DNA of 23,309 nucleotides. Origin: a virus. This document shows positions 640-14,636 of the stretch, piece by piece; position 1 is the stretch's first letter, and every line of letters begins with the position of its first letter. Position numbers and translations under genes: made by a program. Below the pieces are notes generated by a model that was given only the letters and a program-made list of their open reading frames with translations, was not told the DNA's origin and did not search any database. The DNA lies in the IMG/VR virus record IMGVR_UViG_3300013005_000176, positions 1 to 23,309 of that record. One strand, 5' to 3'.

Positions 640-658
640 ATTTATATTTTATTTATAC

Positions 659-708
659 ATAAAGATAAAGTATAGTTTTCAATTAAACAACCTATACTTT
701 ATCTTTAT
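659..708. repeat. Perfect 17-bp inverted repeat between dut and the next gene
   Basis: The arms 659-675 and 692-708 are perfectly complementary over 17 bp and separated by a 16-base loop. The structure lies 23 bases past the dUTPase stop codon in the direction of transcription. No T-run follows the stem on the minus strand, so it is not a textbook intrinsic terminator. It overlaps promoter P1: the TTG lies in the loop and the -7 box in one arm. It may be a terminator/promoter boundary or a protein-binding palindrome; I cannot tell which. Confidence 0.7.
660..690 (-). promoter_or_regulatory. Bacteroidetal-type promoter P1 (TTG-N20-TATCTTTA)
   Basis: On the minus strand TTG lies at 690-688 and TATCTTTA at 667-660, separated by 20 bases. 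This is close to the known Bacteroidota consensus, -33 TTG and -7 TAnnTTTG. The block from AGGTTGTTTAATTGAAA through TTATCTTTA to GTATAA recurs with identical spacing at 10612-10642, also just upstream of a minus-strand start codon. Two copies with conserved spacing and different intervening bases argue for a functional element. It would drive the gene starting at 639. Confidence 0.55.
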
Positions 709-731
709 ATATTATAAATATCATCTATATA

Positions 732-3128: not shown

Positions 3129-4490
3129 TTATCCTAGTGAATCTCCTAAAAGTTCTGAATATTTTGTGGCTAAAGACTTTCTTGTTACGGTATCTTCATC
3201 CATATCTGTTTTTGTTTCTCTTCCCTTGACAGAAGATTCTTGATACATATCAATTCTTCCATTAGACATATTAAGTTTAGTTGGCAAAGTTAATCCATCA
3301 GGCCCAAATCTATTTTTAATAAAATGTACTCTTCCCGTTCCAGCTATCTTATCTGTCGTCTTTCTTGCTAATGAAATAATAACATCACCAATCATAATCT
3401 TACTAAATGAAGAAGCTACTTGATCTGATGTAATAATATCTGATTCAACTGAACTTCTATTTGCTTGAGATGCTGTAACTAATGGTATTTGATATTCACC
3501 TGCTAATCCTCTTAAATCTTCGTATGTAGTTTCTAATTCTTCATGAAGCTTTTCTTTTGATTTAGCAGATCTTAATAAATCCGCATAATCTACAATAACG
3601 ATGTCTGGTTTTATTCCTTGCATTATTATCTTATCTAAATGAGCTTTTAAGGTCGTTACTGATGCTGTTTTTGTAGGAAAATACTTTAATATTAATTGAC
3701 CTGTTAATTTTCCTAATTCACATTCTACTTCATCTAAGTTATATTTTAAGTTCGCAGTTGCTATTCCTGTAACTACCGAATCATATCTTTGAGCTACATA
3801 AGGCTCTGATAATTCCATAGTATAATGTACTACCGTTTTACCTTGTCTTAATAAATGAGCTCCGACATTAATCATCGCAGTTGATTTACCCGCTCCTGGT
3901 CCTGCAACAAATATAATAAGTTCTCCTTTACCAATACCACCATCAACTAATTCATTAAAAGCAGTCCAAGGTGTTGCAAGAGTCTTTCGAGCAGATTCTT
4001 CATATCTTTGCTTAATATCTTTTAAGTAATCCATTCCAATATCTTGATTGGTACCTGATTTCATAGCAGTATCAATTTTACGTTTGATATTATCATATTC
4101 ACCTGTTTTAAGTAAATCAACAGATTCGATAATAGCAGTTTTGATACATTGATTTTTACAAAAATTAACACATTCTACTTTTACAAACTCTAAATCTTCT
4201 GCTTCTACGTATCTTAGAATATCTTTTAAAGATTCAACGATTGACATTTTTAAAGGTTCTGATGTAAGCTCCATTGCTTTTACTTTAAAAACTTCTAATG
4301 TAGGTATTGCCTTATATTCTACATAATATTTCATAATTACTTCTACAATCCAAGAATTGGCTTCAGAGTCAAAATATGAAGGTAATAGAATATCGAATAT
4401 TTGTTGAAGAAATCCTTTATCTTTAATTAATGCGGCAATAATTTTTAATTGAAACGTCTTACCATACTGCGTAAATTTATCTTGATTCAT
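3129..4490 (-). CDS. Replicative DNA helicase, DnaB/T4 gp41-like
   Basis: Predicted hexameric 5'-3' helicase of the phage replisome. The 453-aa protein has a helical N-terminal domain (about 1-150) and a RecA-fold motor domain (about 165-420). The motor shows Walker A AGPGAGKST (196-204), the acidic H1a motif YTMELSE (223-229, E226), Walker B VIVDYADLL (298-306), motif H3 TASQANRSS (339-347) and IKNRFGPDGL (391-400), the usual arginine-finger/H4 region of DnaB-like helicases. It lacks a primase domain, and no primase gene is seen here, so primase is probably encoded elsewhere. The gene starts 31 bases after the 5' nuclease stop. The leader has no Shine-Dalgarno sequence. Confidence 0.93.
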   Translation of the reverse strand: MNQDKFTQYGKTFQLKIIAALIKDKGFLQQIFDILLPSYFDSEANSWIVEVIMKYYVEYKAIPTLEVFKVKAMELTSEPLKMSIVESLKDILRYVEAEDLEFVKVECVNFCKNQCIKTAIIESVDLLKTGEYDNIKRKIDTAMKSGTNQDIGMDYLKDIKQRYEESARKTLATPWTAFNELVDGGIGKGELIIFVAGPGAGKSTAMINVGAHLLRQGKTVVHYTMELSEPYVAQRYDSVVTGIATANLKYNLDEVECELGKLTGQLILKYFPTKTASVTTLKAHLDKIIMQGIKPDIVIVDYADLLRSAKSKEKLHEELETTYEDLRGLAGEYQIPLVTASQANRSSVESDIITSDQVASSFSKIMIGDVIISLARKTTDKIAGTGRVHFIKNRFGPDGLTLPTKLNMSNGRIDMYQESSVKGRETKTDMDEDTVTRKSLATKYSELLGDSLG

Positions 4491-4521: not shown

Positions 4522-5574
4522 TCAAGAATTATTTGTAGTTAATGCAAATTGATTTAGTTGATTGAATGTATTTAAAAATTGTATAGGGTCTTTAATATAA
4601 TTGTATCCTTTATCTGCCGTTAATATTTGAATAAACTCATTTTTATTTATTAAAGAAACTTGTTCGTTAAATTTATCTAAAACAAATAATTTATGAGAAG
4701 ACGGTATATCTACAGAATGTAATTGCATTAGTTTATAGTTTCGTATAATATCTAATTTAAACTCCAAAATCTTTTTATATAGTTTGTCTGTTTTATTGTT
4801 TTCCAAGAATTCCAAAAATTCATCTAAGGAAATGACTTTGTTTTCTTGTAGAAGTTGTATTTTACATACTGTTTTAGGACCTATACCAGGAATACCAGGT
4901 ATATTATCAGATGAATCTCCTATAAATACCTTGTATAAATGATAATTAGACGCCGGAATCCCAAATCGTTCTTTAACAGTGTCTTCTTTATATAGTCGCT
5001 TTTCTACAGGCCTATATACATTAACTTTATTATTTATAAGTTGTAAATAATCTTTATCATCTGATATTAATAAAATATCACTATCATGTTTAGTTGCTAT
5101 ATCAGTTACTAAGTAAGATATTAAATCATCTGCTTCTACATTATCAGCCGTTAATACAGTCGTCGGTGTACATCTTAAATACTGTATCAATCGAACAAAC
5201 TGATGCTTCATTGAAAGCTGTTCATCTTCAGCATTTTCAAATATCTCAGCTCTGTTAAATGATTTAGGCTGTATTCTGTTACCTTTATACTCAGAAAATA
5301 TTTCTCTTCTTTTTTTCGAACCACCTTTGCCGTCAAATGTAATAATTAACCTTGTAGGTTTGAATGTTCGTATATATGACGCTAAAGATTTTAAAAATCC
5401 TAAAGAACCTCCCAGATGCTCTCCGTTGTCATTTAACACCGGATTTGCCATAAAACAGCGCAAATAAAAATTCGTCCCGTCCACCAACATAACCCGGGAG
5501 TTAATATTAAGTGTAACGGGACGATCTTTTTCTTGCTGAATTTCTTTTAATAATTCAACATATCTCTCTAACAT
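4522..5574 (-). CDS. 5'-3' exonuclease / flap endonuclease (T4 RNase H / T5 FEN type)
   Basis: Structure-specific 5' nuclease that removes RNA primers and flaps during lagging-strand synthesis. The 350-aa protein carries the metal-binding acids in order: D32 in MLVDGTNFYLR, D81 in IITFDGKGGSKKRRE, E147/D149/D150 in VEADDLIS, D172/D173/D175 in SDDKDYLQ, and D220/D223 in FIGDSSDNIPGIPGIG, which opens the helix-hairpin-helix DNA-binding loop. Family A DNA polymerases often carry this domain as a fusion; here it is a separate gene 8 kb away from the polymerase. The start lies two bases after the groEL stop, which implies tight co-transcription. It is the one gene in the window whose stop I read as TGA, evidence that TGA is a real stop in this genome. 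Confidence 0.93.
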   Translation of the reverse strand: MLERYVELLKEIQQEKDRPVTLNINSRVMLVDGTNFYLRCFMANPVLNDNGEHLGGSLGFLKSLASYIRTFKPTRLIITFDGKGGSKKRREIFSEYKGNRIQPKSFNRAEIFENAEDEQLSMKHQFVRLIQYLRCTPTTVLTADNVEADDLISYLVTDIATKHDSDILLISDDKDYLQLINNKVNVYRPVEKRLYKEDTVKERFGIPASNYHLYKVFIGDSSDNIPGIPGIGPKTVCKIQLLQENKVISLDEFLEFLENNKTDKLYKKILEFKLDIIRNYKLMQLHSVDIPSSHKLFVLDKFNEQVSLINKNEFIQILTADKGYNYIKDPIQFLNTFNQLNQFALTTNNS

Positions 5575-8378: not shown

Positions 8379-9161
8379 TTAATTAAATAGTTTATCAAAT
8401 GCACTAGAAATGTCTTCTACTGATTTAGTATCTTCTTGTTTTGTAGCCGGTCTTTGCGGAGTGCTAGCTGGTGCTGATTCTTCTTGAACACCTTCAGTGT
8501 CACGATTTAACCATGTAGTCAATACTGCTTTTAAATCTTCGTAAGAAGGCTCTTTAAAAATTTCAGTTAAGTTCTTTTGACCTGTAGCAATTTTTGTGAT
8601 AATTTCCTTATCTGTGTGTACCGGAGTTTGATTAGGTTTAATACGAATAGAAGTTTCAGGATAATCTTTACCTGTTTGTTCTTTTGTTTTAAATTCTACT
8701 GTAATGTCTCTTCCAGAAACTGGGTCTGTAATATCGCCATAATCTGGGTCAGCGATAAACCCTAATAATTCTTGATAAACTGTTTTACCAAATCCCCAAA
8801 ACTTTACACCTTCATGTTCTTTACCGCGAACAATAATAGGAGCATATACTCTCATCTTAGGTTCGATCTTTTTACCTAACTTCCATTCTTCTTTTTTACC
8901 TGTAGATTGTAACTTTTCAGCAAATTCTACTACCGGATCTGGTTTACCGAATGTTGATGGAGATAAATACTGCTTGTTTCCAAATTCATAATGAAAATAC
9001 AATTCGTTAAATGGATTGTCTTTGTTGAACTGATACGGAACGATTCTAACTACTTGTGTTCCTGGTTCTGGTTTCCATAACGTGTCTTGTCTTTCACCTT
9101 TTCCCGTGTTTTTTTGCAAATCTCCGAGCTTCGCTCTAATTGCATCTAAATTGATTGCCAT
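8379..9161 (-). CDS. Single-stranded DNA-binding protein, T4 gp32-like
   Basis: Coats ssDNA at replication forks and recombination intermediates. The 260-aa protein has a short basic N-terminal arm (LGDLQKNTGKGERQD), a core with many aromatic and basic residues (QVVRIVPYQ, ELYFHYEFGNKQYLSPSTFG, VKFWGFGKTVYQELLGF), a low-complexity Pro/Ala/Thr linker (about 225-243) and an acidic tip ending EDISSAFDKLFN. That architecture fits gp32-family SSBs, whose acidic tail recruits partners. It has no cysteine, so the zinc site of T4 gp32 (three Cys and one His) is missing. It is followed by the recombinase gene. The call rests on layout and context as well as on motif resemblance. Confidence 0.82.
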   Translation of the reverse strand: MAINLDAIRAKLGDLQKNTGKGERQDTLWKPEPGTQVVRIVPYQFNKDNPFNELYFHYEFGNKQYLSPSTFGKPDPVVEFAEKLQSTGKKEEWKLGKKIEPKMRVYAPIIVRGKEHEGVKFWGFGKTVYQELLGFIADPDYGDITDPVSGRDITVEFKTKEQTGKDYPETSIRIKPNQTPVHTDKEIITKIATGQKNLTEIFKEPSYEDLKAVLTTWLNRDTEGVQEESAPASTPQRPATKQEDTKSVEDISSAFDKLFN

Positions 9162-9270: not shown

Positions 9271-9654
9271 TTATAATTTAATAATATCAAATATTTCTAA
9301 TTGATGTATTATTAATGTTTTATCTGTTACTAATATTGCTGAGTTTGAATAATCATCCCAATTTACTTTATAATTTTTATCTATGATATTATTATTAAGT
9401 GATGAAATTAAATAATTCAATCCATTTATAGTATATAATGTATTTGTTTCTTTATGTCTGTGTATTGCTATTGTACTATCTAATAAATCTTTTAAGTTTC
9501 CAGATTCTATATTATATGTACATGCTAATTCAGATGTTTTGCTCATACGCAAAATAAAAATTTTATTGTTAAGTATATTATAATTACTTTCAATTAAATC
9601 AATTGTATCTTGAATATTAGTTTCTTGAGTAAATGTGCAGAGTAGTCGTATCAC
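9271..9654 (-). CDS. Small conserved-looking phage protein of unknown function
   Basis: A 127-aa protein rich in Ile, Asn and Leu, with no signal peptide or membrane segment. The N-terminal half (LCTFTQETNIQDTIDLIESN, then NKIFILRM and ELACTYNI) alternates beta-like and helical stretches. The C-terminal half contains TLYTINGLNYLI and a YKVNWDDYSNSAILV segment. I do not recognise a catalytic motif. The chosen start is GTG, because an in-frame stop lies a few codons upstream and the first internal Met would remove 35 residues; this start is less certain than the others. It lies between the accessory island and the SSB gene. A copy of the polymerase-tail repeat sits just upstream. Confidence 0.7.
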   Translation of the reverse strand: MIRLLCTFTQETNIQDTIDLIESNYNILNNKIFILRMSKTSELACTYNIESGNLKDLLDSTIAIHRHKETNTLYTINGLNYLISSLNNNIIDKNYKVNWDDYSNSAILVTDKTLIIHQLEIFDIIKL

Positions 9655-9676: not shown

Positions 9677-9714
9677 ATAAATATCTATAATGTTACATTT
9701 TTTAAGTTATGATA
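9677..9714. repeat. Copy 3 of the polymerase-tail repeat (38 bp, identical)
   Basis: These 38 bp are identical to the segment at the 3' end of the DNA polymerase gene (native copy 13276-13313), which encodes the last residues YHNLKNVTL and the TAG stop plus the following spacer. Here the copy is not preceded by a polymerase gene. It lies in the spacer between the 274-aa gene and the 127-aa gene. The right boundary (…TTATGATA on the plus strand) is the same as that of copy 2. Confidence 0.9.
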
Positions 9715-9765
9715 GCCGTATCTAAATTAAAGATATACATTAACAAGAAAAATGTTATTTTATTT

Positions 9766-10590
9766 TTAATCAATGATCTGTGTTACAATATTTTTATTTT
9801 TATCAATGAATAAGTTCCATGATTCATCACCGTAATTATTAAGTTCCTCTAATTCTTCTAATGTCATTCCTGTAATTTTTAAGAGGATATCTAATTTAAT
9901 TACTTTTTCATAATTACCATCAATATTTTTCCAAGCCGGATTTTCATCAGCTTTCTCATATTTCTTATATAATTCTTTACCTCTTTTATCATCAAATTGG
10001 TAAGGTACATACTCTGCATTTTCTTTGATAAGCCCTGCTAACTTTTTCATTCTAACAAATTGTTCATTTAATGAAGATGGTTGTTTACGATCAAATATAT
10101 CCCAAGCTATTTGAGCGTTGTCAAATGATTGATCTTGAAATTTAGGTTTTAAATTATAACCTTGTTCATCTTGAGCTCCTGGGCCATATGCTGGCTTTGA
10201 GAAATAAGTGTAATATTTAGCTAAATTATCAAGAGATTTTTTAGTATCTTTACCATTATAAAATACACTAAGAGTTAAAGGTAATTTGTTGTTTGCTCTT
10301 CTATCTTTAGTAGATTGAACCGATGCGTTATATTCAGCCTCATATTCAGCGTTAAATTTAGCACTTGAAGCTTCTAAATCTTTTTTACTTTGATCTTTAG
10401 TAGCTGCGGCTTTTGCAAGCGATGCTGCCCTTTTCTCAGCATATCCCGGTTCATTTTTACGAGCATCTGACTGGCCTTTACGACGAGCTGACATCAACGT
10501 ATATTCTACGCTTTTAATTTCATTATTTCCTATTTCACCTTTAGCAGCCATATCTGATAATTGCTGCATTAATGTTTCAAATTTTGTCAT
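9766..10590 (-). CDS. Unknown phage protein with Lys/Ala-rich N-terminal half
   Basis: A 274-aa protein. Residues 1-105 are helical and rich in Lys, Ala, Glu and Gln (MTKFETLMQQLSDMAAKGEI; ARRKGQSDARKN), probably coiled-coil or DNA/virion-associated. Residues 105-170 hold FYNGKDTKKSLDNLAKYYTYF and an FDNAQIAWDIFDR segment. Residues 178-191 read FVRMKKLAGLIKEN, resembling the LLKEN-type N-termini of neighbouring genes. The rest is acidic. No enzyme motif is recognised. A TTG-N20-TATCTTTA promoter-like element lies 22 bases upstream of the ATG, so this is probably the first gene of a transcript. Virion or accessory function is a guess from location. Confidence 0.8.
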   Translation of the reverse strand: MTKFETLMQQLSDMAAKGEIGNNEIKSVEYTLMSARRKGQSDARKNEPGYAEKRAASLAKAAATKDQSKKDLEASSAKFNAEYEAEYNASVQSTKDRRANNKLPLTLSVFYNGKDTKKSLDNLAKYYTYFSKPAYGPGAQDEQGYNLKPKFQDQSFDNAQIAWDIFDRKQPSSLNEQFVRMKKLAGLIKENAEYVPYQFDDKRGKELYKKYEKADENPAWKNIDGNYEKVIKLDILLKITGMTLEELEELNNYGDESWNLFIDKNKNIVTQIID

Positions 10591-10611
10591 TAGTTTATTT
10601 TTTATTATACT

Positions 10612-10642
10612 TAAAGATAAGATATTACTTTCAATTAAACAA
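10612..10642 (-). promoter_or_regulatory. Bacteroidetal-type promoter P2 (TTG-N20-TATCTTTA)
   Basis: Minus-strand TTG at 10642-10640 and TATCTTTA at 10619-10612, 20 bases apart, lie upstream of the ATG at 10590. The flanks AGGTTGTTTAATTGAAA and GTATAA match P1 (660-690) at the same spacing, while the eight bases between the two conserved blocks differ. Unlike P1, this copy has no perfect hairpin, which separates promoter conservation from hairpin conservation. Its upstream edge abuts the nine-codon remnant of an LRR gene. Confidence 0.55.
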
Positions 10643-10643
10643 C

Positions 10644-10673
10644 CTAAATGTTACTTTTTTTAAGTTTGATCAT
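10644..10673 (-). pseudogene. Nine-codon remnant of an LRR-gene start
   Basis: Reads MIKLKKSNI then TAG. The first six codons, ATGATCAAACTTAAAAAA, are identical to the start of the LRR paralogues nearby, and the upstream spacer is also the same. After codon six the sequence switches to AGTAACATTTAGG, which resembles the polymerase tail TGTAACATTATAG. Both the LRR start and the polymerase tail contain AACTTAAAAAA, so the hybrid looks like a recombination product at that 11-bp microhomology. It leads directly into promoter P2. Confidence 0.65.
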
Positions 10674-10714
10674 ATAAATAAATATCTATAATGTTACATT
10701 TTTAAGTTATGATA
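10655..10714. repeat. Copy 2 of the polymerase-tail / LRR-start repeat (60 bp)
   Basis: Matches 13253-13313 over its whole length with a single one-base deletion in a T-run. It includes the polymerase tail codons, the TAG stop, the 12-base spacer and the LRR start codons. It follows the broken third LRR gene and overlaps that gene's stop codon. Confidence 0.9.
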
Positions 10715-11300
10715 GATAGATATTACCTTTTACTCCAGGTAACATTTGTTTTAATTGTTCTTCTGAGTATTTTTTGGATATTAGAGTATTACTTAAATCA
10801 AGTATCCCATTTACTTTTAAATTATTTGGAAGTGATGTTATTGGAGTATTATCTAAAATAAGACCTAGATTTACTTTTAAATTATTAGGAAGGGATTTTA
10901 TTGGAGTACTACTTAAATCAAGACCTCCTCCAACAGTTAAATTATCAGGTAACGATGTTATTAATGTTTCGCCTAGACCAAGACTTCCTCCGACTGTTAA
11001 ATTATCAGGAAGTGATGTTATTTTAGTATTATATAAAAAAAGATCTTTATCTACTTTTAAATTATCTGGGAGTGATGTTATTTTAGTCCCAGTCAAATAA
11101 AGATCTCCGCCGACTGTTAAATTATCCGGAAGTAATGTTATTGGAGTATTACTTAAATCAAGAGTTCCTTTACTGCCGTCTTTAATATATTGCTGAATCT
11201 TTTTTTGAATAGAGATTATATAATTCTTTCATCTTTCTTCAGGAGATCTTCTTGGAATTAGAATATTTTCTTCCTTTAATAATTTTTTAAGTTTGATCAT
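10707..11300 (-). pseudogene. Third LRR paralogue, interrupted by in-frame TGA at codon 24
   Basis: Read from the ATG at 11300, which overlaps the stop of the 264-aa gene as TAATG, the frame begins MIKLKKLLKEENILIPRRSP. A TGA follows (complement of 11229-11231) where the paralogues have Lys or Glu. The frame then resumes KNYIISIQKKIQQYIKDGSK and continues without further interruption to TAA at 10707, 197 codons in all. Six 20-residue leucine-rich repeats (residues 56-175) and the C-terminal cap YSEEQLKQMLPGVKGNIYL are intact. No Met lies between the TGA and the repeats, so reinitiation would need a non-ATG start such as the TTG at 11096. The best reading is a recent nonsense mutation; a sequencing error or strain variation is possible. 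Confidence 0.8.
10776..11135 (-). repeat. 60-bp tandem repeats (six units) in the third LRR gene
   Basis: Six units of 60 bp encode 20-residue repeats of the form [S/L]LPxNLxVxxxLxLxxTxI[T/K/S]. The units are diverged from each other, so this array looks older than the three near-identical units in the second LRR gene. Confidence 0.85.
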
Positions 11301-12094
11301 TACTTCAGACCCGTTATTCGTGTAAAAGTTTTAATATCTTTTGGAGATATTTGATCGTCTAACCCATCATATCCGTCTATTTTACTATCAGATAAAACCG
11401 CTAAAGCAACTACCATCATAGCTTTATATTTTTCAAGTTTTTTATTTTTTTTATGAGAACCTGGAAATGCTTTTTGAAGTTGTTCTATCATTGCCGGAGA
11501 TTTTACTAAAACATAATAAAAAGTAACGTTATTGCTATAATAATAATCGTTAAAATGATCTGGAGCTTTATAAGTAGTACACCAAGCAGAATCTTTCTCT
11601 CCTGTAGTATTACCCATTTCATCAGTGCAATCTCTAAAAGCAAAATAAGACAATCCTAATTTTCTAGAAGCTTCATGTGTATGAGGGGTCATTACAAGTA
11701 AATCTGGAGTATCGATTATTGTTTCATAATCACTTTCAAGGTCTTTAACAGATACACCTTCTCCAGATTTATTAATTGTATCTACTTCATTTTTTAAATC
11801 CGCAAATGATTTGAAAGCATTAACATCTTTAGTTTTTGCTTTACCTTTATTTAAAAATGTGTTATATTCTTCTACAGTATTTCTTAAATCATCTATATCA
11901 GTAACTGTTTTATTAATCCATTGCTTACCCATCCATCCAACAAATTTACGTGTTGGCGTTGGATCTATACTTACTAAAGTTTTAAAATCTTCATCAGATA
12001 ATTTTCCTTGCTCAAGATATTGCTTAGCTTGTTTAATATTCTCAAGAATAAAGTTTTTATTTTCTTTAAGAAGTTTTGATTTTATTATTCTCAT
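11300..12094 (-). CDS. Unknown phage protein with an SAWCTTYK core
   Basis: A 264-aa soluble protein. The N-terminus MRIIKSKLLKENKNFIL is basic-amphipathic and like the starts of the LRR neighbours. Residues about 8-105 are helical. The most distinctive region (about 135-200) reads TPHTHEASRKLGLSYFAFRD, then DSAWCTTYK, DYYYSNN and FYYVLVKSP. From memory, a Trp-Cys-Thr core followed by aromatic-rich strands recurs in uncharacterised phage proteins, but I know no assigned activity. A Lys-rich segment and a helix (MMVVALAVLSDS) follow. The gene sits between two LRR paralogues, and its stop overlaps the third one's ATG by one base, so it belongs to the same transcript. Confidence 0.8.
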   Translation of the reverse strand: MRIIKSKLLKENKNFILENIKQAKQYLEQGKLSDEDFKTLVSIDPTPTRKFVGWMGKQWINKTVTDIDDLRNTVEEYNTFLNKGKAKTKDVNAFKSFADLKNEVDTINKSGEGVSVKDLESDYETIIDTPDLLVMTPHTHEASRKLGLSYFAFRDCTDEMGNTTGEKDSAWCTTYKAPDHFNDYYYSNNVTFYYVLVKSPAMIEQLQKAFPGSHKKNKKLEKYKAMMVVALAVLSDSKIDGYDGLDDQISPKDIKTFTRITGLK

Positions 12095-12126
12095 TTTATA
12101 TATTTCTTTATTATATATCTATAACG

Positions 12127-12717
12127 TTATAGATATATCTCTCCTTTAACGCCTGGTAGCATTTGTCTTAATTGTTCTTTAGTATATTTTTTAGATATTG
12201 GGCTGTTACGTAAATCTAGATCACGTTTAACTGTTAAATTATCAGGTAATTGAGTTATTTTAGTTCCTGTTAAACTAAGTGTCCCGTTAACTGTTAAATT
12301 ATCAGGTAATTGAGTTATTTTAGTTCCTCTTAAAATAAGTGATCCGTTAACTGTTAAATTATCAGGTAATTGAGTTATTTTAGTTTTATTCAAAAAAAGT
12401 CCGCCTCCTACAGTTAGGTTATTAGGTAGGGATGTTATTGGGGTGTTATTTAAATAAAGACCGTCTGTTACTGTTAAATTATCAGGTAGCGATGTTATTT
12501 TAGTATTCATTAAATTAAATTCTCCATTAACTGTTAAATTATCTGGAAGTGATGTTATTGGCGCTCCGCTTAAATTAAGACTCCCCTCACTGCCATCTTT
12601 AATATACTGCTGTATTTTCCTTTGAATTGCTATTATATAGTTTTTCTCACGTTCTTCTGGTGAACGTCTCGGAATTAAAATATTCTCTTCCTTTAATAAT
12701 TTTTTAAGTTTGATCAT
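12127..12717 (-). CDS. Leucine-rich-repeat solenoid protein, paralogue 2 (intact)
   Basis: A 196-aa protein in three parts. Residues 1-45 form a basic N-terminal segment (MIKLKKLLKEENILIPRRSP) plus a helix (NYIIAIQRKIQQYIKDGS). Residues 56-175 are six exact 20-residue repeats of type LPDNLTVxGxLxLxxTxIT. Residues 176-196 are a conserved cap (KKYTKEQLRQMLPGVKGEIYL region). The repeat pattern predicts a short LRR-like beta-solenoid, a scaffold that usually binds proteins. No enzyme domain, signal peptide or membrane segment is present. Three consecutive units (QLPDNLTVNG type) are nearly identical in DNA, which indicates recent unit duplication. It follows paralogue 1 after a 20-base spacer that duplicates the polymerase/LRR junction. 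Its target is unknown. Confidence 0.85.
   Translation of the reverse strand: MIKLKKLLKEENILIPRRSPEEREKNYIIAIQRKIQQYIKDGSEGSLNLSGAPITSLPDNLTVNGEFNLMNTKITSLPDNLTVTDGLYLNNTPITSLPNNLTVGGGLFLNKTKITQLPDNLTVNGSLILRGTKITQLPDNLTVNGTLSLTGTKITQLPDNLTVKRDLDLRNSPISKKYTKEQLRQMLPGVKGEIYL
12193..12552 (-). repeat. 60-bp tandem repeats (six units) in LRR paralogue 2
   Basis: The period is exactly 60 bp. Three successive units share an identical run of more than 30 bases starting ACTGTTAAATTATCAGGTAA, spaced 60 bp apart, near 12230-12385. The unit count differs between paralogues (five in paralogue 1, six in paralogues 2 and 3). Confidence 0.9.
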
Positions 12718-12742
12718 ATAAATAAATATCTATAACGTTACA
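12700..12742. repeat. Junction repeat between LRR paralogues 1 and 2
   Basis: Matches the polymerase/LRR1 junction (13253-13296) with one mismatch. It spans the terminal codons and stop of paralogue 1, the spacer and the first codons of paralogue 2. Because the same junction lies on both sides of paralogue 1, the gene is bounded by direct repeats and could be duplicated or lost by recombination. Confidence 0.85.
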
Positions 12743-13271
12743 GATATATCTCACCCTTTACTCTAGGTAACATTTGTTTTAATTGTTCCTTTGTGTATTT
12801 TGCAGATAATGGAGTATTAAATAACTCAAGATCTCCTCCTACTGTTAAATTATTTGGTAATGATGTTATTTTAGTATTCATTAAAGAAAGATCATCTCCT
12901 ACTTTTAAATTATTCGGAAGTGATGTTATTGGAGCATTATCTAAATAAAGACCTCCTTTAATTGTTAAATTATTTGGTAGTGATGTTATTTTAGTATTCG
13001 TTAAAGAAAGAGAGCCCCCAACTTTTAAATTATCTGGAAGAGATGCTATTGGAGTATTAAATAACTCAAGATCTCCTCCAACTTTTGTTAAATTATCTGG
13101 AAGAGATGTTATTGGCACCTTACTTAAATCAAGATCTCCTTTACTGCCATCTTTAATATATTGTTGTATCTTTTTTTGAATAGAGATTATATAATTCTTT
13201 TTACGCTCTTCAGGGGAACGTCTCGGAATTAAAATATTCTCTTCCTTTAATATTTTTTTAAGTTTGATCAT
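12738..13271 (-). CDS. Leucine-rich-repeat solenoid protein, paralogue 1 (intact)
   Basis: A 177-aa protein with the same plan as paralogue 2: a basic N-terminus (MIKLKKILKEEN), a helix (NYIISIQKKIQQYIKDGSKG), repeats at residues 56-156, and the C-terminal cap YTKEQLKQMLPRVKGEIYL. It has five repeats, one carrying an extra Lys (LTKVGG), so it is one unit shorter than its paralogues. The repeats are more diverse in sequence than those of paralogue 2. It starts 12 bases after the DNA polymerase stop and is probably translated from the same message. The function is unknown; LRR solenoids commonly mediate protein binding, so a virion-associated or host-interacting role is possible. Confidence 0.85.
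   Translation of the reverse strand: MIKLKKILKEENILIPRRSPEERKKNYIISIQKKIQQYIKDGSKGDLDLSKVPITSLPDNLTKVGGDLELFNTPIASLPDNLKVGGSLSLTNTKITSLPNNLTIKGGLYLDNAPITSLPNNLKVGDDLSLMNTKITSLPNNLTVGGDLELFNTPLSAKYTKEQLKQMLPRVKGEIYL
12804..13106 (-). repeat. 60-bp tandem repeats (five units) in LRR paralogue 1
   Basis: Five units encode 20-residue repeats, the first being 63 bp because of one inserted Lys codon. Alternate units end in NTPI or NTKI, so a two-unit (120-bp) periodicity is also visible and suggests duplication of pairs. Confidence 0.8.
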
Positions 13272-13313
13272 ATAAATAAATATCTATAATGTTACATTTT
13301 TTAAGTTATGATA
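13253..13313. repeat. Native polymerase-tail / LRR-start junction (copy 1)
   Basis: This 61-bp segment contains the final polymerase codons (YHNLKNVTL, TAG), the spacer and the first LRR codons. It is the presumed parent of copies at 10655-10714 and 9677-9714, because only here is the upstream reading frame a complete polymerase gene. A shorter version lies at 12700-12742. Confidence 0.9.
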
Positions 13314-14636
13314 ATCATAGCCAACAGCACACTTAACTGGATATTTGCCATTACATTCCAATAGTTGTTTTATATCATGTATATACTTACCACCATCATC
13401 TTTATGAAAATCAATCAAAACTGAATCATATAAATACAATATTATCTTACTCTTATATCGTTCGTTAACGCTCGTCAAAGTGTCTAATATCGCCATAGTT
13501 TCCTCCATCTCTAAGGATTGAATTAAATAATTTAATAATTTTTGAGAGTTCATATCATTAAAAAAATCACTTTTTAATATACGTTTATAAATAGGTGTTT
13601 CTATGTATTTTTGTGTTTTGTATAATTTCCAGTTTGTTTTTGTAAAATCATCAACTAATTTAAAAAACGGAATATTTAAAAATTCTTCATCTATACCGCC
13701 ATATAATTGTTTAAATGTAACTGATTTACTTTGATCGTATTCTTCTTGAGTTAATTCTTCTTTTCCAAAATAATAACGACCTAAATATTCATGCATATTT
13801 ATTTTGCCTGGAAATTGATATCCTAATAATTCTCCTAATAATCGAATATGATAAGCATCATAATCAAACTGTAATAAAAATCCGTCTTTACCAAACCGAG
13901 ACTTAAATGACTTTCTTACGCCTGAATCTTTATTTAAAGCAGCATAATTTACAGAATCAAATCTATTTGAAGGTCTTCCTGTTGTTGTATAAGGATTATA
14001 TTCAGTGTAAACAAAATCATTAGTTATTGTTACGTTTGGAAATGTTTCTTTAAGTATATTAGAATCAACGTTCAAGCCGTTCATTTCTATTTTGTTAAGA
14101 GTCTTTATAATAGTATTGTATTTTATAAAAGACTCGGAAATTTGAAATGACTTATATAAATCTAAATATTCTTGAATAACATTATAAAATTTCTCATGCT
14201 GTTTTACAATGGGAAGAAGAAAATTTAAATTTTTAAGATTGGAATATTTTTGATTAAAATAATCATGTACTGAAGTATTAAATTCTTCAGAATCTATTGA
14301 TTTATTTGTTACGAAATAATAAACTAAATTAGCATCATATATATGGTCACATTTTATTGTGTTTAATATATACTTTAAATTAAATATAAATACTTCTTTA
14401 GCAGAACATAACACTTCAGAAATAATTGGATTGTTTATTTTTAATCCCTCTGAATGATCTATACTAATAATAGTATGTCTGTCAATCGTTAAATCATAAA
14501 TAAATATTAATGAAAGTTCATTAACTTTATAATGTAAAAATGGGTCTTTTAATATAGGGGCTACAAATAATCGATGGCCCGCTACTTTTGGAATTAACCG
14601 TTCTAATTCTTCAATTGTTTCTATTATGGGCATCAT
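13284..14636 (-). CDS. polA: Family A DNA polymerase with degenerate proofreading domain
   Basis: Phage replicative polymerase, 450 aa. Polymerase landmarks: TGRPSNRF (219-226); motif A FDYDAYHIRL (257-266, D258), with His where most family members have the Glu of DYSQIELR; motif B KSVTFKQLYGG (304-314; K304, F308, Y312 conserved, but Tyr in place of the usual upstream Arg); and motif C LYDSVLID (402-409, D404), with YDS instead of HDE. Both catalytic Asps are present. The N-terminal region (1-170) still shows an exonuclease-like FNLKYI element (compare NLKYD), but the DxE motif and that Asp are missing, so proofreading is probably absent here. The 5' nuclease is a separate gene. It lies between the tail genes and the LRR cassettes. 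Confidence 0.88.
   Translation of the reverse strand: MMPIIETIEELERLIPKVAGHRLFVAPILKDPFLHYKVNELSLIFIYDLTIDRHTIISIDHSEGLKINNPIISEVLCSAKEVFIFNLKYILNTIKCDHIYDANLVYYFVTNKSIDSEEFNTSVHDYFNQKYSNLKNLNFLLPIVKQHEKFYNVIQEYLDLYKSFQISESFIKYNTIIKTLNKIEMNGLNVDSNILKETFPNVTITNDFVYTEYNPYTTTGRPSNRFDSVNYAALNKDSGVRKSFKSRFGKDGFLLQFDYDAYHIRLLGELLGYQFPGKINMHEYLGRYYFGKEELTQEEYDQSKSVTFKQLYGGIDEEFLNIPFFKLVDDFTKTNWKLYKTQKYIETPIYKRILKSDFFNDMNSQKLLNYLIQSLEMEETMAILDTLTSVNERYKSKIILYLYDSVLIDFHKDDGGKYIHDIKQLLECNGKYPVKCAVGYDYHNLKNVTL

Follow-up and report, generated by a model that had tools for sequence, protein, structure and literature searches.

Recurrent gene insertion beside the DNA polymerase gene of related phages, with duplicated polymerase gene ends as probable insertion scars

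The interval between the DNA polymerase gene (pol) and orf127 in a group of related phages is best explained, with a probability that we put at about 0.8, as a gene-insertion hotspot, where foreign genes would enter by break repair or illegitimate recombination in products that keep both gene ends and from which they may later be lost through repeats. Comparison of genomes shows that related phages have repeatedly received foreign cassettes next to the stop codon of pol. The in-use pol tail lies on one side of the cargo and a displaced one on the other, a cassette can differ exactly between two repeats in near-identical genomes, and alleles of the pol 3′ end have been exchanged. A first-pass annotation of the same DNA had attributed the core-gene fragments scattered between accessory genes to repeated recombination at a junction of pol tail and LRR start. 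This idea is largely right, except that the junction copies are probably in the main insertion scars, that is, duplicated pol ends, and not the agent that first imported the cassettes.

Results

The pol-SSB island and its junction copies

The window is the whole stretch of DNA that was analysed, 23,309 nt of IMG/VR record IMGVR_UViG_3300013005_000176. All genes in its pol-SSB island are encoded on the minus strand, where the gene order is baseplate and tail genes, pol, LRR1, LRR2, X, LRR3, gene Y, orf127, gp32-type single-strand DNA-binding protein (SSB), RecA-type recombinase (UvsX), GroEL, 5′-3′ exonuclease, DnaB-like helicase, B12-type ribonucleotide reductase and dUTPase (Table 1). The pol product has a PHROG DNA polymerase match (E 2.8e-11), and its homologue in Flavobacterium phage immuto is annotated as DNA polymerase family A. 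In one relative (L024, 16609-19498) an intein-like region interrupts the gene for the DnaB-like helicase, whose halves flank an endonuclease-like ORF (REase_MTES_1575) in a fractured-gene arrangement.

Table 1. Features of the pol-SSB island in the window
Feature	Positions	Strand	Remark
pol, DNA polymerase (family A type)	13284..14636	-	core gene, 3′ end duplicated
Variant pol 3′-end allele, about -150 to -30 relative to stop	13314..13434	-	compared with L010
Junction A: in-use pol tail, stop, spacer, LRR1 start	13253..13313	-	61-mer
LRR1, 177 aa	12738..13271	-	cassette gene; empty relatives lack a homologue
Junction B: tail remnant TGTAACGTTATAGATATTTAT and LRR2 start	12700..12742	-	43 nt, one mismatch
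LRR2, 196 aa	12127..12717	-	cassette gene
Short tail remnant TAACGTTATAGATAT	about 12113..12135	-	inside palindrome, behind LRR2
X, conserved protein, 264 aa	11300..12094	-	travels with LRR genes
LRR3-start repeat ATGATCAAACTTAAAAAA	11283..11300	-	18 bp; one end joined in L008
LRR3	10707..11300	-	interrupted by TGA at 11229-11231; L009 has AGA
Junction C: displaced pol tail of other spelling, with LRR-start remnant	10655..10714	-	60 nt; precedes gene Y
Gene Y cassette promoter (GTAACATTTAGGTTGTTTAATTGAAA ... TTATCTTTAAGTATAATA)	10597..10659	-	motif enriched upstream of genes
Gene Y, 274 aa	9766..10590	-	missing from L010, sole cargo in L021
Junction D: displaced native pol tail before orf127	9677..9714	-	38 identical bases
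orf127	9271..9654	-	conserved, GTG start; next after pol at empty site
gp32-type SSB	8379..9161	-	right border of interval; Pfam gp32 E 6.9e-17

In minus-strand reading, the 61-mer of junction A consists of the last pol codons and stop (TATCATAACTTAAAAAATGTAACATTATAG), ATATTTATTTAT and the LRR start (ATGATCAAACTTAAAAAAA, MIKLKK). The positions that the first-pass annotation gave for it and for all its copies proved exact, and the repeats are far beyond chance, for at any other place in the window the 61-mer matches exactly over at most 49 nt, while 100 second-order Markov shuffles averaged 12 nt and never exceeded 15 nt. The copies at 10655 and 9677 had been said to stop at the same right-hand base; they do, the copy at 13253 ends there too, and one further base is common to the first two. 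What had been described as a 1-bp deletion at 10655 is indeed one base fewer, better read as the loss of a C, because L009, 99.9% identical to the window, has AACCTTAAAAATG there, which is the pol tail spelling of the L011 lineage. The copy at 9677 had been listed as a fragment of a core gene; it is the native pol-orf127 junction, displaced downstream, since its sequence joins orf127 directly in L010 and tail, spacer and orf127 follow each other in this order in the empty relatives. The tail remnant behind LRR2 and the LRR3-start repeat are additions to the earlier list.

Empty and occupied sites

With the window pol protein as query, 17 loci were recovered; a renewed pol search using an alignment gave no further close contigs. 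All close relatives are metagenome contigs, and the independent events among them are few. The site is empty in L011, L012, L014-L019 and L024, where the pol stop is followed by a 26–28-nt spacer and orf127 and a single copy of the pol tail is present; in cultured phage immuto, 19 nt separate pol from the homologue of orf127. Judged from these genomes, the ancestral order is pol, a 26–28-nt spacer, orf127 and SSB, with one pol tail.

In the other relatives the cargo varies. LRR1-LRR2-X-LRR3-Y occupies the site in the window and in L009, the same array without LRR3 in L008, LRR-X-LRR without gene Y in L010, nothing but a shorter Y in L021, a single LRR gene in each of L022 and L023, and a GIY-YIG homing endonuclease in L013. 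A further contig (L088), which begins within an LRR gene so that pol lies outside it, has X together with four complete LRR genes ahead of orf127. In every close lineage showing both pol and cargo, one pol tail is found at pol and a second just before orf127. As the first-pass annotation had anticipated, the number of cassettes between pol and SSB varies among close relatives within bounds set by the pol tail, and their kind varies too. The finding that would have spoken against it, a fixed gene order with the repeats kept as independent regulatory elements, was not obtained, the empty sites being single-tailed. The cargo is broader than the LRR cassettes then proposed, and includes gene Y with its own promoter and the homing endonuclease of L013. 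On an SSB and UvsX tree the occupancy labels require 9 changes, and cargo differs among rows with identical SSB and UvsX. The position is therefore an accessory-gene insertion hotspot (hyperplastic site) in the sense that it is empty or differently filled among close relatives. No tail repeat was seen in distant phages with one large fixed gene between pol and orf127, nor at older X/LRR insertions there (e.g. L057, L165, L167, L203); at the latter, missing repeats would be expected if scars decay.

Clean gains and one loss

Several pairs of genomes are similar enough to expose breakpoints. Compared with L016 (98–99.9% identical), L021 has a 618-bp insert flanked by 62 bp that are single in L016, and compared with L018 and L019 (96–98% identical), L022 has a 582-bp insert with a 31-bp flanking duplication. 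The gene Y insert of the window lies between two pol tails where L010 has one. Taken together, the duplications measure 31, 38, about 45–50 and 62 bp and have differing end points; the constant target duplication or att core of a transposon or integrative element is not found. A second L022 insert, in the roomier orf127-SSB gap, has no convincing duplication: an apparent one of 36 bp proved on inspection of the letters to be weak AT-rich similarity and was not counted.

The window and L008 (99.8–99.9% identical) differ by 609 bp containing LRR3; at the point of joining, L008 retains precisely one of the two 18-bp LRR-start copies. Since LRR3 is present in L010 too, loss in L008 would be the simpler direction. 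The proposal that recombination at the junction lets cassettes be copied, lost or mixed is borne out in this respect, LRR3 being missing precisely between LRR-start repeats.

Tail spelling and exchanged pol ends

The in-use pol tail of the window and the copy at 9677 read TTA AAA AAT GTA ACA TTA TAG. The L009 copy at the 10655 site is spelled CTT AAA AAT, like the L011-lineage pol and unlike the window's own. Behind LRR1 and LRR2 the tail copies are spelled TAACGTTATAG, as are the pol tails of L014, L015, L018, L019, L022 and L023, and this spelling is also found behind the LRR insert of L022. Because displaced tails vary in this way and some equal the pol tails of other lineages, we infer that some cassettes came with a piece of the donor's pol tail.

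The pol 3′ end itself points to exchange. Between the window and L010, identity is 77–80% in the last two 75-nt bins and 93–100% in the remaining gene, with the final 30 nt identical. The protein signature of this divergent tail is also found in the L013 tail, to which the nucleotide identity is 81% for the window and 82% for L017. The displaced tail of L013 has 91% identity to the L019 type and 78% to the in-use tail of L013, so the pol 3′ end there was exchanged upon arrival of the endonuclease. A coconverted (exchanged) flank of the neighbour gene is present in both comparisons, the window pol 3′ end against L010 and the displaced against the in-use tail of L013.

Cassette genes

Gene Y came with a promoter of the phage's own family. 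This promoter is 89–95% identical to several promoters of the relative G001, and in both the window and L021 the cassette begins at its upstream edge. The two versions of gene Y (1171-1728 in L021) have promoter and N-terminus in common and are divergent further on. Among the relatives examined no donor copy of gene Y was found, only its promoter family. The family, approximately GTAACATTTcGGTTGTTTAWTTGAAA followed by TTATCTTTAAGTATAATA, precedes many short genes (in L217, that is, G001 at 80–100 kb, and at 10597-10659 of the window). Gene Y contains the motif LNEQFxRMKKLAGLIKEN, which also occurs in other ORFs of these phages. Elsewhere in the window (646-721), the promoter core GGTTGTTTAATTGAAA lies in the loop of a long inverted repeat, a promoter-in-hairpin.

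No promoter of the gene Y type was found at the LRR and X cassettes. The in-frame TGA of LRR3 is either a fresh nonsense change or a sequencing error. X was found in 56 loci (the window and loci L028-L082), mostly adjoining LRR genes, and has a conserved core with PHTHEASR and DSxWCTTYKAPDHFNDYYY. It belongs to no recognised family, giving no Pfam, PHROG or clear defence match (PADLOC search included), and its AlphaFold model, of moderate confidence (pLDDT 72), had no significant PDB fold match. By a rough estimate made by eye, endonuclease genes are not clearly commoner near X/LRR cassettes than elsewhere.

Seg-like endonucleases

The GIY-YIG gene of L013 lies at the exact pol-orf127 site and matches the PHROG homing endonuclease family (E 9.7e-37). 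In the distant L317 an endonuclease gene directly follows pol, and in Vibrio phage nt-1 SegD adjoins gp43. An endonuclease within the insert is found only in the relative L013; none was recognised in the window island. It is plausible that a Seg-like endonuclease could initiate breaks at the pol 3′ end. Flanking gene-end repeats as a general signature of Seg-like genes were rejected, as they were found at 0/8 of these genes in named phages and at 3/58 in viral contigs.

Two further endonuclease loci are worth recording. In G001 (the contig of L017), a second Seg-like GIY-YIG endonuclease insert (169655-170227) has a copy of an intrinsic terminator on either side, where the relative G002 has just one. 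In L280, an endonuclease insert is accompanied by a displaced copy of the 39 bases with which the downstream gene begins (in front of the endonuclease ORF at 3980, and at 4849-4888); its differences look synonymous, and it resembles a 5′-end counterpart of the pol tail scar.

Discussion

Why would insertion beside pol leave a duplicated pol tail? We propose that a cassette is inserted by break repair or by illegitimate or short-homology recombination at two junctions, which would take place in a phage encoding UvsX and gp32. If the right junction of an insert lay past the left one, a gene end or leader would usually be destroyed, and mainly products retaining both gene ends, which carry the duplicated pol tail, would survive. 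As pol and orf127 are only 26–28 nt apart, such duplication-bearing products are the ones expected to survive, and the lack of a convincing duplication in the roomier orf127-SSB gap fits the same selection. Later, recombination between the repeats may remove or shuffle cassettes. Some of the breaks may come from Seg-like GIY-YIG homing endonucleases, one of which stands in a sister lineage beside a different pol 3′ end. Against this explanation it counts that the independent events are few, that the close relatives are all metagenome contigs, that flank duplications are rare at Seg-like genes in general, and that the island of the window has neither a recognised endonuclease nor a recombinase.

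A sharper version of the same explanation, and not its opposite, would make the whole island homing-driven: a Seg-like endonuclease would cleave the native 3′ end of pol, its flanking DNA with a recoded tail would be copied in, the cassettes would be either passengers or genes that later took the place of an endonuclease since lost, and the divergent tail of the window would be a leftover resistant allele. We regard this as a real possibility that falls short of an even chance. The endonuclease of L013, with its displaced tail nearer to the L019 type than to its own, the neighbours of pol in L317 and nt-1, and the protein signature that the tails of the window and L013 have in common all speak for it. 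However, the site is filled without an endonuclease in the window, L010, L021, L022 and L088, the native tail is kept in L021 and L022, and in nucleotides the window tail is no closer to that of L013 than is the L017 tail. That a dedicated enzyme, such as a transposase, an integrase or a paired nickase, inserts cassettes with long target duplications is improbable; direct target duplications do flank the inserts, but their lengths and end points vary, and Pfam, PHROGs and PADLOC recognised neither a recombinase nor a transposase in the set of cassette proteins.

Two readings would do without insertion scars altogether. The repeats might be regulatory or RNA elements kept for a function of their own, independent of insertion. 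Indeed, GATATTTA is enriched on the coding strand ahead of genes, with 9 occurrences for 1.1 expected, and the junction may at its end also serve as a leader signal. Nevertheless, the copies contain codons of pol, a single copy is present in empty relatives, the full tail is repeated only with cargo, and AGATATTTATA is present only twice in a 197-kb relative; the single-copy empty sites and the rarity of the motif in this large relative largely refute this reading, which we consider highly improbable. The chance that the arrangement is an assembly artefact is smaller still: short repeats and paralogous LRR genes can mislead assemblers, but L009 shows the same arrangement, and L008, L010, L021, L022 and L023 are contigs of other metagenome records.

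Gain of single genes between conserved genes of phages is usually inferred from old, blurred events. In the hotspot described here, near-identical genomes expose recent gains and one loss with exact breakpoints, and the scars are readable pieces of a core gene. They provide a signature that can be searched for in other phages, namely displaced copies of gene ends, sometimes of a different allele, and the pol-orf127 case offers a direct test of whether homing endonucleases open sites to unrelated cargo. It is rather unlikely, yet worth stating, that single-gene capture at gene ends is a general process, undescribed in the open-access text, that leaves 30–60-bp duplications of the neighbour's end and in which tail spelling records the donor lineage; if so, the history of accessory-gene capture could be read from scars.

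How does this site compare with known systems? Free-standing endonucleases of T4-like phages lie between conserved genes and convert flanking markers (PMC2988022). The seg and mob insertions resemble the pol-orf127 case in their position between conserved genes and near a replication gene, in the exchanged end of the neighbour gene and in the actual Seg-like gene at this site in L013; they differ in that the window cassettes have no endonuclease and gene-end duplications are irregular at Seg-like genes. SegB promotes amplification of segments via short homologies and UvsX-dependent recombination in T-even phages (PMC13096335). There too, the copy number of small segments changes through short homologies and the phage's own recombination, but the products are tandem copies of one segment under selection, whereas here different foreign genes would be inserted and later lost. 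Endonuclease-flanked HEG islands have been described at boundaries of exchange (PMC10448857); these share with our case a boundary beside an essential gene, but they exceed 10 kb and are bracketed by endonuclease genes, while the genes found here are single, of 0.5–1 kb and unbracketed. Promoter early stem-loops (PeSL) are credited with the shuffling of genes between T4-like phages (cited in PMC4503421). The likeness is that gene Y moves with its own family promoter and that its cassette starts at the upstream edge of that promoter; the difference is that no stem-loop is evident by eye at the gene Y copy and that the LRR and X cassettes have no such promoter. Because the window cassettes contain no recognised endonuclease or recombinase, we do not file the pol-orf127 case as a member of any of these systems, although, as far as the comparison of genomes goes, it works like them.
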